NCBI GenBank assembly: GCA_003349885.1 | Contig: QFXC01000013.1 | Coordinates: 496,001 to 560,000, forward strand | DNA: 64,000 bases | Direction of reading: 5' to 3' | From: an endosymbiont of Galathealinum brachiosum | GTDB lineage: Bacteria > Pseudomonadota > Gammaproteobacteria > SZUA-229 | In this document: positions 42,829-49,873 of the stretch, in pieces | Layout: every line of letters starts with the position of its first letter | How positions within the stretch are numbered: position 1 is the stretch's first letter | Notes under the pieces: generated by a model | Seen by the model: the letters and a program-made list of their open reading frames with translations, nothing else | What the model was told of the DNA's origin: nothing | Databases searched by the model: none | Position numbers and translations under genes: made by a program

Positions 42829-42870
42829 TTAATAACAAAATAACCTCTAATAAATTAATTATTCTGATAA

Positions 42871-42973
42871 GAGTTAGATTTAGCTGACGATTTACAGTGC
42901 GAAGAAAAGCTAGTAATAAAGAACTAATGGTTCGCTATGCACCTCAGAAAATATCGTCAGTTAAAGCTAACTC
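42871..42973. repeat. 103-bp imperfect inverted repeat
   Basis: The ends (42871-42891 and 42953-42973) are 21-base complementary arms with two mismatches, starting GAGTTAG. A second inner pair (GTGCGAA/TTCG...GCAC) continues the stem. It is between convergent genes, so it may be a terminator, a MITE-like element or a structured RNA. Confidence 0.6.
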
Positions 42974-43024
42974 CAATAAATAACATACATTCGTATTGTT
43001 ATAGAAAGAATAGGTAGATAACCA

Positions 43025-44650
43025 TCAATCAACTTTAAAGCGTGAAACCAGATCACTAATTGTTCTGGTTATATTTTTAATGTTCTGCGCTGATTCTTCA
43101 GACATTTTTGAGCTGACTACCGTTTCATCTGCCAGTTGCTGAATCGAGCAAACACTTTCCTGCACACTCGAAACAACATCACTTTGCTCTCGTGTAGCCA
43201 CTTGAATTTGCTCAGCCATATCATTTACAGACTGACTTGCTGCAGTAATTTCATTTAGTGCACTACCCGCCTCTCTTGATTGTTGTACACCTTCTGCAGC
43301 CAGACTACTTCCTCGCTCCATAACCTCAACCGCTGCTTGTGTATCTGTTTGTAATTTTTCAATTATTTGTTGTATTTCATTCGTAGAATCATGCGTTCGG
43401 TTTGCCAGGGTTCTTACCTCATCAGCAACCACCGCAAACCCTCGCCCGGTTTCACCCGCTCTGGCGGCCTCAATTGCCGCATTCAGCGCCAACAGGTTAG
43501 TTTGTTCTGCAATTGATAAAATAACATCAGACACCGAACCTATTTGTTCACTACTTTCCGCGAGCGAACCAATAACTGTACTCGCCTGATTCACTTCATT
43601 TGCCAGCTTCTGCATAGACTGAACCGATAACTCAACAACTTCTTTACCTTTTATTGCCTGTTCTTTTGCTGACTCACTGTCCTGTTGTGTTTGTCTGCTG
43701 ATATTTGCAACTTCTGCAGATGATGCATCCAGCTCTGTTATCGCCGTTGCTATTAACTGGGTTTCCTGGCTTTGCTGATTAATTTTATCTGCAGTACTGT
43801 GACTGACTGACTCAGACATAACTGCTGCCTGCTCAAAACCAGCTGTTGAATTTTTTACTTTACTAATAATCGTTTGCAAGCTGGCCATAAATTCATTAAA
43901 TGAATTGGCTAAATAAGCCAGCTCATCTTTGCCTTCAGCATCCAGCCTTTGCGTTAAATCAGCTTCACCATGTGCAATTTCGGACATTGCAAACGCGAGT
44001 TTTTTTACCGAACCTTTAATACCCTTCGATACTATTAATGTAATTAGCAATCCCACAATAAATGCGATAGCGGTAACAAGCATACTTGAATTAGATAACT
44101 GCTTTGCACTGCGATTGATAAACCTTGCCTGACTTGACAATGCCTGCCAGGATTCCGCCTCCAGATTCACTGAAATAGCCGATAATTTATCAGCGTATTC
44201 ACGTAACTCCGCCTCTAGCTCTTCAGTAAAATTATAATAACCATCAGACGCGACAACTTCTTCCGTCATTGTTAAAAAAGCACTTGTGTATTTTTTATTT
44301 AAATCATCAATTAACTCCAGCTGCTGTATCTTCTTCTGATTATCAGCTTTTGTTTTTAATACATTCAGAGCGGCTATTAGCTCTGCATCATATATCTTAA
44401 ACAGTGAAACCAGATCCTGGCTATAATTTGATGTATATCGTTCAACAACAATCTGCTTTTTATTGACTGACTTCAAAACCAGACCCGCTTCCTGTGCCTG
44501 GACTTTTAAATCATTTATCATTGAATCTACCGCATCAGACACATGCGTTAAATTAAATAGAACATACGAAGAAAAACATAACATCATGATTAATATTATT
44601 ACTGGTGCCAGCAATAATTTGATGCCTAATCGCATTTTATTAAGTAACAT
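43025..44650 (-). CDS. Methyl-accepting chemotaxis protein
   Basis: A 541-residue chemoreceptor. A first membrane helix (about 12-32), a periplasmic helical sensor (about 33-185), a second membrane helix (about 190-210), a HAMP domain (about 211-265) and a C-terminal signalling domain with the conserved hairpin tip [18 protein letters not shown] (near 390). Unlike the fragment at 6144 it is intact. It is the last gene of the minus-strand cluster that begins with the VWA lipoprotein; the 16-bp gap to the repeat protein gene suggests co-transcription. The ligand is unknown. Confidence 0.93.
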
Positions 44651-44666
44651 ACTTTTTCCTAATTAT

Positions 44667-45578
44667 TTATTTTATACCTGAAATTAGCAGATCTATATTC
44701 CGACCTACTAATTGCAAATTTGACAGTACATCCTTTGGTTTTTTTCCTGTCGATTGAGATCCACTCTCAACCTTTATTAAAATTTTATGATGCCTTTTCA
44801 CATAAGCCAGTTCTGCCATCATCATATTAATTGCATCATAAACATCTGAAGGATTAATCTCACCCTGTGGGTACTCTGGCACACGAAAAGCATTTAACCC
44901 GTATTTTTTTTCTAAATATGTAAATTTATGCAAGTTAAGATAAGCCTGCAAATTAACCTGATACGGCGTGGTTTCATCAGGGTTAGTATTAACTTCAGTT
45001 TCTAAACTAATTGAATGTTTATTAGCTAATAATTCTAAATTTTTTAAAATCAGAACACTACGCTGATAGACATCATCCGGTGATATCTTTGGCGCCAGAC
45101 CATCAAGCATAAACGATGCTTTCCAAAAATTCTGGTAAACATCACTTGGCGTTTTACCCAGCACTAGTTGAGCTACCTCTTCTGATTGCCCGACATTTTT
45201 TGAATTCTGTATCTTACGCAACTCTTCCAGAATTAACTCTGCCTGCTGAAAAACATCCTCAGGTGTGATCACCTTTAATGGTATTGGCTCAACCTTAACC
45301 GCTGCCAGCCCCATGCTCACCTCAGCATCATGAATTTTCTCAAGAATCTCTAGTGATTTAGCATAGACATGCAAAGGTTTTTTATTATTTTGAACACCGG
45401 GAACGCGGGGACTATGCTGAACATTTAACTCATTTCGTAGATGCTGTATCTCTAACACCACCTGTTCAGATCGTTCATAAACATCAGAAGGGGTTATTTC
45501 GGCTTTAACCGTTGAAGCAACAGAAAATAAAATGACAGAAAAAAAATAAGCGAAGCCGACTAGAGGACATGACCTCAT
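44667..45578 (-). CDS. Exported protein of eight PxDVY-type repeats
   Basis: A 303-residue protein with a signal peptide (residues 1-26, ending VKA). The mature chain is built of eight units, each opened by a short motif: ITPSDVY 28, KKPLHVY 66, ITPEDVF 104, KTPSDVY 142, ISPDDVY 165, TTPYQVN 203, INPSDVY 241 and KKPKDVL 279. Six spacings are exactly 38 residues; only unit 4 to 5 is shortened to 23. Odd units (IxPxDVY) alternate with even ones ([KT][KT]P), suggesting a 76-residue double repeat. Each unit continues as an amphipathic helix. I know no named family for it. Probably periplasmic. Confidence 0.7.
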   Translation of the reverse strand: MRSCPLVGFAYFFSVILFSVASTVKAEITPSDVYERSEQVVLEIQHLRNELNVQHSPRVPGVQNNKKPLHVYAKSLEILEKIHDAEVSMGLAAVKVEPIPLKVITPEDVFQQAELILEELRKIQNSKNVGQSEEVAQLVLGKTPSDVYQNFWKASFMLDGLAPKISPDDVYQRSVLILKNLELLANKHSISLETEVNTNPDETTPYQVNLQAYLNLHKFTYLEKKYGLNAFRVPEYPQGEINPSDVYDAINMMMAELAYVKRHHKILIKVESGSQSTGKKPKDVLSNLQLVGRNIDLLISGIK

Positions 45579-45695
45579 TTTTATCCCCTTATATAATTAA
45601 AAATCTAAACTAGTAAAAGGATAGTCCAATAACAAGGCTAGTCAAACAAATACAATAGATATACCTGATTTAAAAGCGCCCCTTCATTTCTAGCT

Positions 45696-46484
45696 CTAAT
45701 GGTTGCCATCTGTAAAATCATCCAGCTCTTTATATGCATCAATATAATCTTTAGAAAAATCAGCAAAACCATCAAATGAAGATGTCCAGTCCTTATTTAA
45801 ATCAGTTTCATTTACCCGGCTACCATTAAAACTAACGACTTTGTTGGCTTCCAGGTCAAAACTCTTTTTGTATTCTACGAATTCTTTACCAATATCTTTC
45901 TTGTAGTTACTAAACTCATCATCCAGAGCCTGTTGACGCTGTCTTGCCTGTTGCTTAAAAGCAGCAAAATCATCAGCTACATCTGCTGGTTTATGTATTT
46001 CATAATCATCACCAGGAGATTCAATATTTAACTTACCTTCCTGCAAGGCAACCTGCTGATTATTATCATCCGCATCAACGATAAAGGTAGTACCCCGAAT
46101 GCCGATAGTTGCAAACTTTGTACGTACCTTTTTAGGCTTTTGCTTACCTATTACTTTTCGAAAGACATAATAAATTTTACCGCCCAATTGTGACAACCAG
46201 CCTGACTGCTCCACTCTTAAACTACTTTTCTGATCCAGTACCGACATAGCACCATCATCAAACTGTAATACTGCCTTGCTATTTTTACTGGTAACAACGG
46301 TTTCATCACTATTCACCAGAAACTGCATTTTCTCGGGTTTTCTCTTTTCACCCTCCGAATTCATCACATATACCTGCCCCTGAACTTTTACAATTCGGGC
46401 TCTGAAATTTTCAGCTAATAATGTTGATTGGAATAAAAAGGGTGATAAAACAAATAAAATGCCTGCCAGCTTTGTAGAATTCAT
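45696..46484 (-). CDS. FecR-domain exported protein
   Basis: A 262-residue protein with a signal peptide (ending LLA near residue 24), then a FecR domain (about 25-150: RIVKVQGQVYV, AVLQFDDGAMSVLDQ, ATIGIRGTTFIV), then a charged helical tail (about 165-262) likely to form a coiled coil. FecR domains here lack the membrane anti-sigma part of classical FecR, so it is more probably a periplasmic structural or sensory domain. It lies between the anti-sigma gene and the repeat protein gene, 117-120 bp from each. Confidence 0.85.
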   Translation of the reverse strand: MNSTKLAGILFVLSPFLFQSTLLAENFRARIVKVQGQVYVMNSEGEKRKPEKMQFLVNSDETVVTSKNSKAVLQFDDGAMSVLDQKSSLRVEQSGWLSQLGGKIYYVFRKVIGKQKPKKVRTKFATIGIRGTTFIVDADDNNQQVALQEGKLNIESPGDDYEIHKPADVADDFAAFKQQARQRQQALDDEFSNYKKDIGKEFVEYKKSFDLEANKVVSFNGSRVNETDLNKDWTSSFDGFADFSKDYIDAYKELDDFTDGNH

Positions 46485-46604: not shown

Positions 46605-47486
46605 TTAATCATGTAGGATTTTAGAGGTATTTTCCTTTTCCCACCTGATTTCCAGATCCAGTAGCGCCTGAGGTAGTGCCATATCATTAACACTTAATGG
46701 ATATTTTTTCCGATAATCTTTCATTGCGAGCCTGAGCTTTTCAAACTGACCTGTTTGATACAGTGTTATTAATACATCCTGTTCGTTTTTCTGCTGACTT
46801 TTAGCCAGAACGGCCTCTTTGTGCCCCATCGGCGCACCTCCCGTATCTAATGCCTCTTCGGATACCGCCTGTGACATAACCGGCATAGAGGTTATTCCCC
46901 TCGATACTTCAGCATCAGACTCCATATACTGATGACTTTGACTCACCGGTAACGATGCTGATGGAGCACTAACCGGCGCCCGGCTCAGTTTTTTACGCTC
47001 CTCTACTGCCCTCACTTTCGCTCTTGCAGCTGATGATGCTACTTTTTTCTGTTTACGTTGATCCGATTTTTCACTCATCTTTCGTGCTTGACGCATCTTC
47101 ATATCAGACATGATAAGTGTTTTTTCATCTGCCTTTCGTTGTTCGTCTTCAGCAAAATCTGACTCCATAAATCTGGAATCTATTACTTCATTCACCGTTG
47201 TATCGGGTTCAAATGCAAATTTCAATACAACACTTAAGCTTAATACCATAACCGCCACATAGGACATGGGCACATACCAGGCACGCTTAACATACTTGTT
47301 CAGTATTTTTGAATTATTGTTTTTCTCTATTTCACTCTGTTCTAGTTCATGAGAATCAACAGCCTGATGTGCAGCCTGCAATAGTTTTGCATCTACCGAA
47401 TCAGGAGGTAGCTCGGTTGATTCCAGCAGATATTTATCATGTAAAAGCTGGAAATCCTTATCCTGATCAAATTCTTTATTATTCAT
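46605..47486 (-). CDS. Putative anti-sigma factor (single membrane helix)
   Basis: A 293-residue protein that overlaps the upstream sigma factor gene by four bases (ATGA), the usual sigma/anti-sigma coupling. Residues 1-65 are cytosolic and helical, one membrane helix lies at about 70-91, and residues 92-293 are probably periplasmic, rich in Lys, Gln and Ser, with Met-rich stretches. It has no zinc-type HxxxCxxC motif, so it is not a ZAS protein. Assignment rests on position and topology. Confidence 0.65.
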   Translation of the reverse strand: MNNKEFDQDKDFQLLHDKYLLESTELPPDSVDAKLLQAAHQAVDSHELEQSEIEKNNNSKILNKYVKRAWYVPMSYVAVMVLSLSVVLKFAFEPDTTVNEVIDSRFMESDFAEDEQRKADEKTLIMSDMKMRQARKMSEKSDQRKQKKVASSAARAKVRAVEERKKLSRAPVSAPSASLPVSQSHQYMESDAEVSRGITSMPVMSQAVSEEALDTGGAPMGHKEAVLAKSQQKNEQDVLITLYQTGQFEKLRLAMKDYRKKYPLSVNDMALPQALLDLEIRWEKENTSKILHD

Positions 47487-48148: not shown

Positions 48149-49873
48149 TCAGGTATCTAAAGACTTAGCCAGAGCAACAAGCTGTAAAAATTCACCTCGA
48201 TAACCGAAGGAATCATCTCCTTTAGATTTTTTAGCCAGCTCAAGAATATCATTATAATCAAAATCTCGCAGATATTTTCCTCCTCTTAACTGTTGAGCAA
48301 AAGCCGCTACTGACGCTGAGAACTTAAAGTTATTACTAGCCTGACTAATGTTTTTAATTACATCATGTTTATATATAGGTTTTTCTATCAGCTGACTGGT
48401 AGAGTGACTATCTTTTTTATATCTCAAACGAAGAAATGCCAGCTCATTATTATGTTTAACTGAATCAGCCTGCGAACTATCTGATACGGTTTTAGAATAG
48501 CGATTATTATCAATCTGTTTTACTGCACTATCCGTAAAGGTCACTTCATATAATGCGGTTACGCTATGACTTTCACCTATATCTCCCGCATCAACTTTGT
48601 CATTATTAAAATCCTCCTGTTTTAATGCACGATTTTCATAACCAATTAAACGATACTCAGAAACCTGATCAGGATTAAATTCAACCTGTATTTTCACATC
48701 ATTCGCAACAGTGTTCAGCGTTGAATTCATCTCTTCAACTAAAACTTTTCTTGCTTCGTTTAAGTTATCAATATAGCTATAATTACCATTACCCACATCT
48801 GCCAGCTGCTCCATTAAATGATCATTATAATTACCTCGACCAAAGCCCAGCGTAGTTAATGAAATACCCGTTTTACGTTTTTCTTCAACAATTTGTTTTA
48901 ATGCCTCAAAATCAGTAACACCCACATTAAAATCACCATCAGTGGCTAATACAATTCGGTTTACACCCCCTTTGATAAACGATTTCTGTGCCATCTGATA
49001 CGCCAGTTTTATTCCGCTTGCACCATTAGTTGATCCACCGGCAGTTAAGTTATCCAGTGCCATTGTAATATCAGAGGTTTGATCTCCTTTCGTTGGTTTT
49101 AAAACCACACCTGTAGATCCTGCATACGTCACAATTGAAATACGATCGTTTTTATTAAGGTTATTAACTAGTAATTTCAAACCTGACTTAAGCAACTGCA
49201 GTTTATCTCGTGTATGCATTGAACCAGAAACATCAACTAGAAAAACAAGATTACTTGCGGGACGCTGTTCGTTATGTGACTGATACGCCTGCAACCCTAT
49301 ATGAACTAAATGGCTATATTCATTCCATGGTGTGGGTGCAATTTCAGTATTAATTGTAAATGGCTGACTTTTACTTTTCGGGTATTCATAATTGTAACTA
49401 AAATAATTTATTAACTCTTCAGTACGAACCGCATCCCTTTGCGGTAGCTGGCCCTGATTTAGAAAACGTCTTACGTTTGAGTATGCACCTGTATCCACAT
49501 CAACACTGAATGTTGAAACTGGAATATCAATAGATTTAAAAATTTCACTATCTGTAAAATGATTATAATTTTCTCGATTTTCTTCAATCTGATGGCTAAC
49601 AAACCCCTGATAATAAACCGGTGCTGAATGCATACGCGCCATAACACCCGGACTTGCACTTTTAGCCATAATAGATTTTCTATATTTAGCTTTTTCACTA
49701 GCAGAAGCCCTTGCTGCATCCTGACTCATCAGTTTTTGTTCAGCCATTACGTGTTGCTGAGAATGCTCCTGACGAATATCTGATTCATTTTTTCCGACTA
49801 GACCACATGCCGTTAACAGAACACTGCTTACACAGATTAATGATAGTGATGCGGGGGTAATTGAATTATTCAT
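48149..49873 (-). CDS. VWA-domain lipoprotein, YfbK-like
   Basis: A 574-residue lipoprotein (lipobox LTAC, C23). An N-terminal YfbK-type domain lies at about 95-205 (FSVDVDTGAYSNVRRFLNQG). A von Willebrand A domain follows at about 208-380 with a complete MIDAS, D214-x-S216-x-S218 in DVSGSMH, and then a DUF3520-like C-terminal region with FAQQLRGGKYL near residue 545. Such proteins often neighbour ECF sigma genes in gammaproteobacteria, and here the sigma gene follows after 60 bp. Its ribosome site is sequestered in a hairpin (see 49880). Confidence 0.9.
   Translation of the reverse strand: MNNSITPASLSLICVSSVLLTACGLVGKNESDIRQEHSQQHVMAEQKLMSQDAARASASEKAKYRKSIMAKSASPGVMARMHSAPVYYQGFVSHQIEENRENYNHFTDSEIFKSIDIPVSTFSVDVDTGAYSNVRRFLNQGQLPQRDAVRTEELINYFSYNYEYPKSKSQPFTINTEIAPTPWNEYSHLVHIGLQAYQSHNEQRPASNLVFLVDVSGSMHTRDKLQLLKSGLKLLVNNLNKNDRISIVTYAGSTGVVLKPTKGDQTSDITMALDNLTAGGSTNGASGIKLAYQMAQKSFIKGGVNRIVLATDGDFNVGVTDFEALKQIVEEKRKTGISLTTLGFGRGNYNDHLMEQLADVGNGNYSYIDNLNEARKVLVEEMNSTLNTVANDVKIQVEFNPDQVSEYRLIGYENRALKQEDFNNDKVDAGDIGESHSVTALYEVTFTDSAVKQIDNNRYSKTVSDSSQADSVKHNNELAFLRLRYKKDSHSTSQLIEKPIYKHDVIKNISQASNNFKFSASVAAFAQQLRGGKYLRDFDYNDILELAKKSKGDDSFGYRGEFLQLVALAKSLDT

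Follow-up and report, generated by a model that had tools for sequence, protein, structure and literature searches.

An exported helical repeat protein encoded beside a membrane receptor: a likely periplasmic co-sensor

Introduction

The stretch of DNA analysed here (the window) is 64,000 nucleotides from an endosymbiont of Galathealinum brachiosum, and contains the gene for an exported protein with regularly spaced P-x-D-V-Y-type motifs. On one side of the gene lie genes of an ECF sigma/anti-sigma/FecR cluster, and on the other an MCP gene. A first-pass annotation of the sequence suggested that the protein might be the output or the sensor of the FecR system. The locus raises the question of how such a protein is built, and which of its neighbors it serves. 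The gene and its signal sequence are:

44667 to 45578, reverse strand: gene for the exported eight-unit protein, predicted helical (303 aa); an open reading frame with about 70 homologous loci.
45501 to 45578, reverse strand: predicted signal peptide, residues about 1-26, without a lipobox (...VASTVKA/EITPSDVY); an N-terminal hydrophobic segment occurs across the family.

Eight motif units in an exported protein

The prolines of the eight P-x-D-V-Y-type units are residues 30, 68, 106, 144, 167, 205, 243 and 281, giving spacings of 38, 38, 38, 23, 38, 38 and 38. These positions in the open reading frame confirm the eight units, six spacings of 38 and shortened fourth spacing of the first-pass annotation; its residue numbers (28, 66 and so on) are those of the prolines minus 2, because counting began at the I of ITP. 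The alternation of odd and even units that it described is real. The periodicity is also present in self-alignment, where the BLOSUM self-score at a lag of 38 is 6.2 sd over that of composition shuffles. None of 5000 shuffles equaled it, and it was unmatched by the all-lag maximum of 500 shuffles. The strongest self-similarity is at a lag of 137, followed by 76 and then 38.

A hydrophobic N-terminal segment resembling a signal peptide is present in 71 of 72 family members, and a scan of the same 72 for transmembrane (TM) segments found no later one that is conserved. The single cysteine of the window protein is residue 4, within the signal peptide. A Sec-type signal peptide and periplasmic export are predicted, in agreement with the earlier description of the protein as exported.

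The protein comprises two homologous halves

45087 to 45497, reverse strand: half 1, residues 28-164, units 1-4, predicted helices 30-50, 68-88, 106-126 and 144-158 (AlphaFold2 model; hhalign).
44676 to 45086, reverse strand: half 2, residues 165-301, units 5-8, predicted helices 167-187, 205-225, 243-263 and 281-301 (AlphaFold2 model; unit pairing; hhalign).

The lag of 137 is the sum of 38, 38, 38 and 23, i.e. units 1-4 recur as units 5-8. Profiles of residues 28-164 and 165-301, built from about 70 homologues and compared using hhalign, aligned without gaps over 135 columns with E=5.1e-33 and a probability of 99.9; a reversed control gave a probability of 2. Unit-by-unit comparison in 64 proteins paired unit 1 with 5, 2 with 6, 3 with 7 and 4 with 8. 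Judged from its sequence, the protein arose by tandem duplication of a half of 137 residues and four helices. It looks as though, by successive doubling, one helix unit gave two, two gave four and four gave eight, probably in that order.

The spacing between units 4 and 5 is 23-25 in 70 of the 71 members measured, while the remaining spacings are mostly 38 or 39. The short junction is therefore ancestral to the family. Unit 4 is short because the first half ends there, and unit 8 is likewise short at the C-terminus. The first-pass annotation had read the protein as four 76-residue double repeats, one of which had lost 15 residues. The double repeats stand, in that a lag of 76 is the second strongest, but the strongest period is 137, and a recent loss of 15 residues from unit 4 is ruled out by the constancy of the junction.

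Predicted structure and searches for relatives

AlphaFold2 modeling, proposed at the first pass and carried out with ten family sequences as input, gave a model with pLDDT 88.8 and pTM 0.84. It has eight helices in addition to the signal helix; the fourth is 15 residues long and the others 21. Every helix starts at a motif proline, as the helix N-cap. The fold of eight helices from two homologous four-helix halves is thus predicted with good confidence. Conservation falls mostly on helix N-caps (P, D, V) and on residues of the core, which is what structural constraint would produce; D146, E256, K81, H70 and K142 are conserved beyond the helix caps.

Searches returned no known relative. There was no Pfam match for the family (the window protein at E<=1, and 21 members scanned), no NCBIfam family match for the protein, nothing below E=0.8 when PDB sequences were searched with a profile of the family, and no Foldseek match of the model to PDB or BFVD at E<=0.001. 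There was no Pfam or solved-structure fold match to TPR, Sel1, HEAT or ARM repeats, and neither the 21 members nor the window protein (at E<=1) had a Pfam match to LTXXQ (CpxP/Spy). The protein does not resemble a Venus-flytrap solute-binding protein, the model being all-helical and a Pfam SBP match absent, nor QseG, since the window protein has no lipobox (...STVKA/EIT) and no QseG family match. A literature search found no published description of such a family. The initial impression that the protein belongs to no known family has thus held up, and the modeled fold is likely to be new.

Distribution of the family

The family occurs sporadically. It was found in 23 of 369 genomes sampled from the class of the window, in 28 of 397 from its phylum with other classes included, and in 10 of 20 genomes of one order. 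Relatives include an Alteromonas, an Endozoicomonas, a Cellvibrionaceae MAG, Thioploca, Halobeggiatoa, a SAR324 MAG and an unclassified gammaproteobacterial MAG. No plasmid copies were found using three different members as queries.

Some relatives are of double length (613-647 aa), with two full eight-unit domains and thus 16 units:

L048, 7715 to 9607.
L149, 5672 to 7570.
L167, 3004 to 4881.
L168, 5814 to 7757.
L169, 3022 to 4863.

Each of these abuts a membrane transducer of the hybrid histidine kinase type; a histidine kinase with Hpt was shown for L048.

The FecR gene is a neighbor but not a conserved partner

45696 to 46484, reverse strand: FecR-domain exported protein, a neighbor and not the conserved partner (Pfam FecR 9.4e-12).
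42829 to 45695, no strand assigned: two-gene cassette of repeat protein and MCP, missing from genus-mates; the flanking genes are directly adjacent in four genomes (G001, G003, G004 and G009).

On the same strand, 117 bp separate the FecR gene from the repeat gene downstream of it. Three genus-mates have FecR orthologues that are 72-82% identical in the same synteny, and one family-mate has an orthologue of 69% identity; all lack the repeat gene and the MCP. The FecR, sigma, anti-sigma and vWA genes are kept in these genus and family mates. In relatives without the cassette the FecR gene directly faces a desulfhydrase-like gene. The window has ~2.6 kb extra between the two, taken up by the repeat gene and the MCP and nothing else, so the boundary of the cassette falls between FecR and the repeat gene. 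The first-pass annotation had raised the question of whether homologues always lie beside a FecR gene. They do not; at the other ~70 loci of the family no FecR, anti-sigma, sigma or vWA gene lies nearby. Genus synteny and this absence speak strongly against a FecR/ECF partnership of the repeat gene, although the looser idea of a sensor in signaling fits what follows.

In base composition the cassette does not stand out, and there is therefore no direct mark of recent transfer. No promoter or terminator consensus for the cassette was clearly above chance.

We note, for the regions 46605-47486 and 48149-49873 of the window, that the anti-sigma-like protein has no Pfam or NCBIfam match. Its gene is the least conserved (33-44%) of the ECF sigma/FecR/YfbK-like vWA cluster of the genus, which is otherwise well conserved.

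A transmembrane receptor gene adjoins the repeat gene

43025 to 44650, reverse strand: MCP of 541 aa, the partner gene, 16 bp downstream of the repeat gene (Pfam MCPsignal 5.9e-43, HAMP 5.4e-11).

The MCP has two TM segments, a helical periplasmic domain of about 160 residues, a HAMP domain and an MCP signaling domain. It is modeled as a helical bundle, with low confidence (pTM 0.33).

Removal of two duplicates and of two loci running off their contigs left 68 distinct evaluable loci of 72, and in 62 of these a two-TM signal transducer abuts the repeat gene. The transducer was called directly downstream in 58 loci, within 60 bp in 55 and overlapping in 18. Two further adjacent receptors were confirmed by tblastn (L054 and L155), and in L150 and L151 an MCP lies 11-12 bp upstream of the repeat gene, that of L150 being confirmed by Pfam. 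The outputs of the receptors comprise MCP, hybrid histidine kinase, GGDEF and GGDEF-EAL; among 33 scanned for domains, HAMP was found in 30, a hybrid histidine kinase in 21 and an MCP in 10. Nearly all have a first TM segment, a periplasmic loop of 160-320 residues and a second TM segment. The periplasmic domains are of several types, including 4HB-like helical and dCache. On the evidence of gene order the conserved partner of the repeat gene is the adjoining transducer gene, here the MCP at 43025-44650.

An adjacent receptor is absent at L035 and L051, and at four Thiotrichaceae loci the transducer is replaced by an exported protein, soluble and weakly similar to Cache. The repeat domain was not found fused to a receptor.

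At the Thiotrichaceae loci (L059, L060, L062 and L064) the soluble protein, of ~245 aa, is encoded by the next gene, and in L059, L062 and L064 the preceding gene encodes a protein of >900 aa rich in D/K/S tandem repeats. This arrangement is possibly a three-gene exported set without a transducer. At L038 (10337-12195) the MCP following the repeat gene is split into two frames, a 235 aa sensor and a 316 aa HAMP-signaling part, by a frameshift or a sequencing error. Five kinase-type loci (L134, L136, L045, L145 and L043) have a second sensor just upstream of the repeat gene. These are CHASE3 proteins, Tll0287-PAS kinases, or a PhnD-like binding protein with a 4HB protein, which suggests larger sensory gene sets.

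The repeat gene and the receptor are inherited together

Receptor type changes 10 times on a family tree of 66 rows, compared with 27.9 in label shuffles, and none of 200 shuffles was as low. Two genomes, G425 and G800, each have one paralogue paired with a histidine kinase and another with an MCP, and each paralogue groups in the clade of its own receptor type.

In the order of G425 the family is present in 18 of 35 genomes. The sensor domain of the G425 kinase gave 14 matches at E<=1e-37, all adjoining a repeat gene, in 13 genomes that have both. In four groups (g396, g383, g376 and f203) that class of sensor is likewise lacking from genomes that have no repeat gene, and the genus-mates of the window lack the repeat gene along with the MCP sensor. 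In a partial Mantel test the distances between repeat proteins gave the same partial r of 0.47 with the sensor and with the kinase part, so that sensor and kinase were not separated; this shows shared inheritance but is not evidence of contact. Since the operons are orthologous, what the co-occurrence shows is joint gain and loss, not contact.

Proposed function

We consider it likely that the repeat protein is a Sec-exported periplasmic accessory subunit, or co-sensor, of the adjacent receptor, the binding and the ligand being the parts that we infer. The protein would be exported by Sec and is predicted to fold into eight helices from two homologous four-helix halves. The 16 bp gap here, and overlap in many relatives, suggest that it shares a transcript with the receptor. 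In the periplasm it would bind the extracytoplasmic domain of the receptor and alter signaling through HAMP, either on binding a small ligand or a component of the envelope, or constitutively, as an activator or a brake. The same module is found with receptors that differ in input (4HB-like helical, dCache) and in output (CheA pathway, phosphorelay, c-di-GMP), and it should therefore act periplasmically rather than on a particular pathway.

This proposal is favored by the abutting transducer at most evaluable loci, the tracking of receptor type along the family tree, the absence of both genes from sibling genomes in four groups, and the quality of the model. Against it stand the equal correlation with sensor and kinase part, the two loci without a receptor, the Thiotrichaceae neighbor, the absence of fusions, and the several types of periplasmic domain, for which a common binding surface is not obvious. 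A broader form of the proposal is that the family represents a class of periplasmic co-receptor not described before, present across the phylum and able to plug into receptors of any output class and any type of periplasmic domain, with a new all-helical fold built by duplication (8 or 16 units). We regard this as a serious possibility, a little short of an even one.

Two narrower forms of the accessory role overlap with it in likelihood. The repeat protein may be a true ligand binder, i.e. a helical solute-binding protein that delivers its ligand to the receptor, as in LuxP-LuxQ or TorT-TorS. The operons with receptors of all output types, and the conserved D146, E256, K81, H70 and K142, are consistent with this, and both chemoreceptors and kinases are known to have partners of this kind (PMC6321045). 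However, the operons were seen without transporter genes and conservation is mainly of the structural kind, so we put this forward tentatively. Slightly less likely is a negative regulator or reporter of envelope state, which would hold the receptor off until titrated away as do CpxP or YfiR. The protein is predicted to be all-helical, small and without a lipid anchor, it is encoded with the receptor, and HmsC-HmsD is a known pair of periplasmic repressor and diguanylate cyclase (PMC8846402); a sequence match to CpxP/Spy (LTXXQ) or similar families is absent.

The protein might instead be a structural periplasmic repeat protein, for example binding wall or matrix, with its linkage to receptors a matter of operon hitch-hiking. 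L035, L051 and the Thiotrichaceae copies could be read in this way, but neither clade-specific pairing with different receptor classes in many families nor joint gain and loss of gene and receptor would be expected of hitch-hiking, and we consider it improbable. Service as output or sensor of the ECF sigma/anti-sigma/FecR system, for which the 117 bp spacing on the same strand speaks, is largely refuted by the synteny described above and is very improbable indeed.

Signals are unknown for most bacterial receptors. If the receptors encoded beside the repeat genes work with a soluble helical partner, screening the isolated receptor domain for ligands would fail on that account, and addition of the partner would make the signal findable. 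Should the co-receptor class be real, many supposed single-protein sensors would read a second, soluble subunit. The family, unnamed in Pfam and NCBIfam and without a solved-structure match, spans chemotaxis, phosphorelay and c-di-GMP signaling.

Comparison with known systems

Periplasmic accessory proteins of transducers are already known as a kind of action. What is new, relative to the families and structures searched, is this repeat family, its predicted fold, and the range of receptor classes served by one module.

Periplasmic binding proteins and receptors form pairs such as LuxP-LuxQ, TorT-TorS, XylFII-LytS and MBP-Tar, in several of which the two genes adjoin. As proposed for the repeat protein, a soluble exported partner acts on the periplasmic domain of the receptor, and binding proteins act in this way on both kinases and chemoreceptors (PMC6321045). 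The LuxP-type partners are alpha/beta Venus-flytrap proteins, whereas the repeat protein is all-helical in the model, has the 137-residue internal duplication and lacks a PDB match.

CpxP and Spy (LTXXQ) are small helical proteins of the periplasm that modulate a sensor kinase, and in this they are like the proposed co-sensor. They differ in size and in lacking the eight-unit plan, and the members scanned have no LTXXQ match. In YfiR-YfiN a periplasmic protein controls a membrane diguanylate cyclase. The same likeness is offered by HmsC, a periplasmic repressor controlling the membrane diguanylate cyclase HmsD (PMC8846402). HmsC works via cysteine pairs, whereas the window protein has its one cysteine in the signal peptide, and a Pfam link is absent.

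QseG acts on the kinase QseE from the periplasmic side, and is a non-flytrap accessory protein encoded with its receptor (PMC12691602), as the repeat protein may be. QseG is an outer-membrane lipoprotein that serves one kinase, whereas the window protein has no lipobox and belongs to another sequence family, one encoded with receptors of all outputs.
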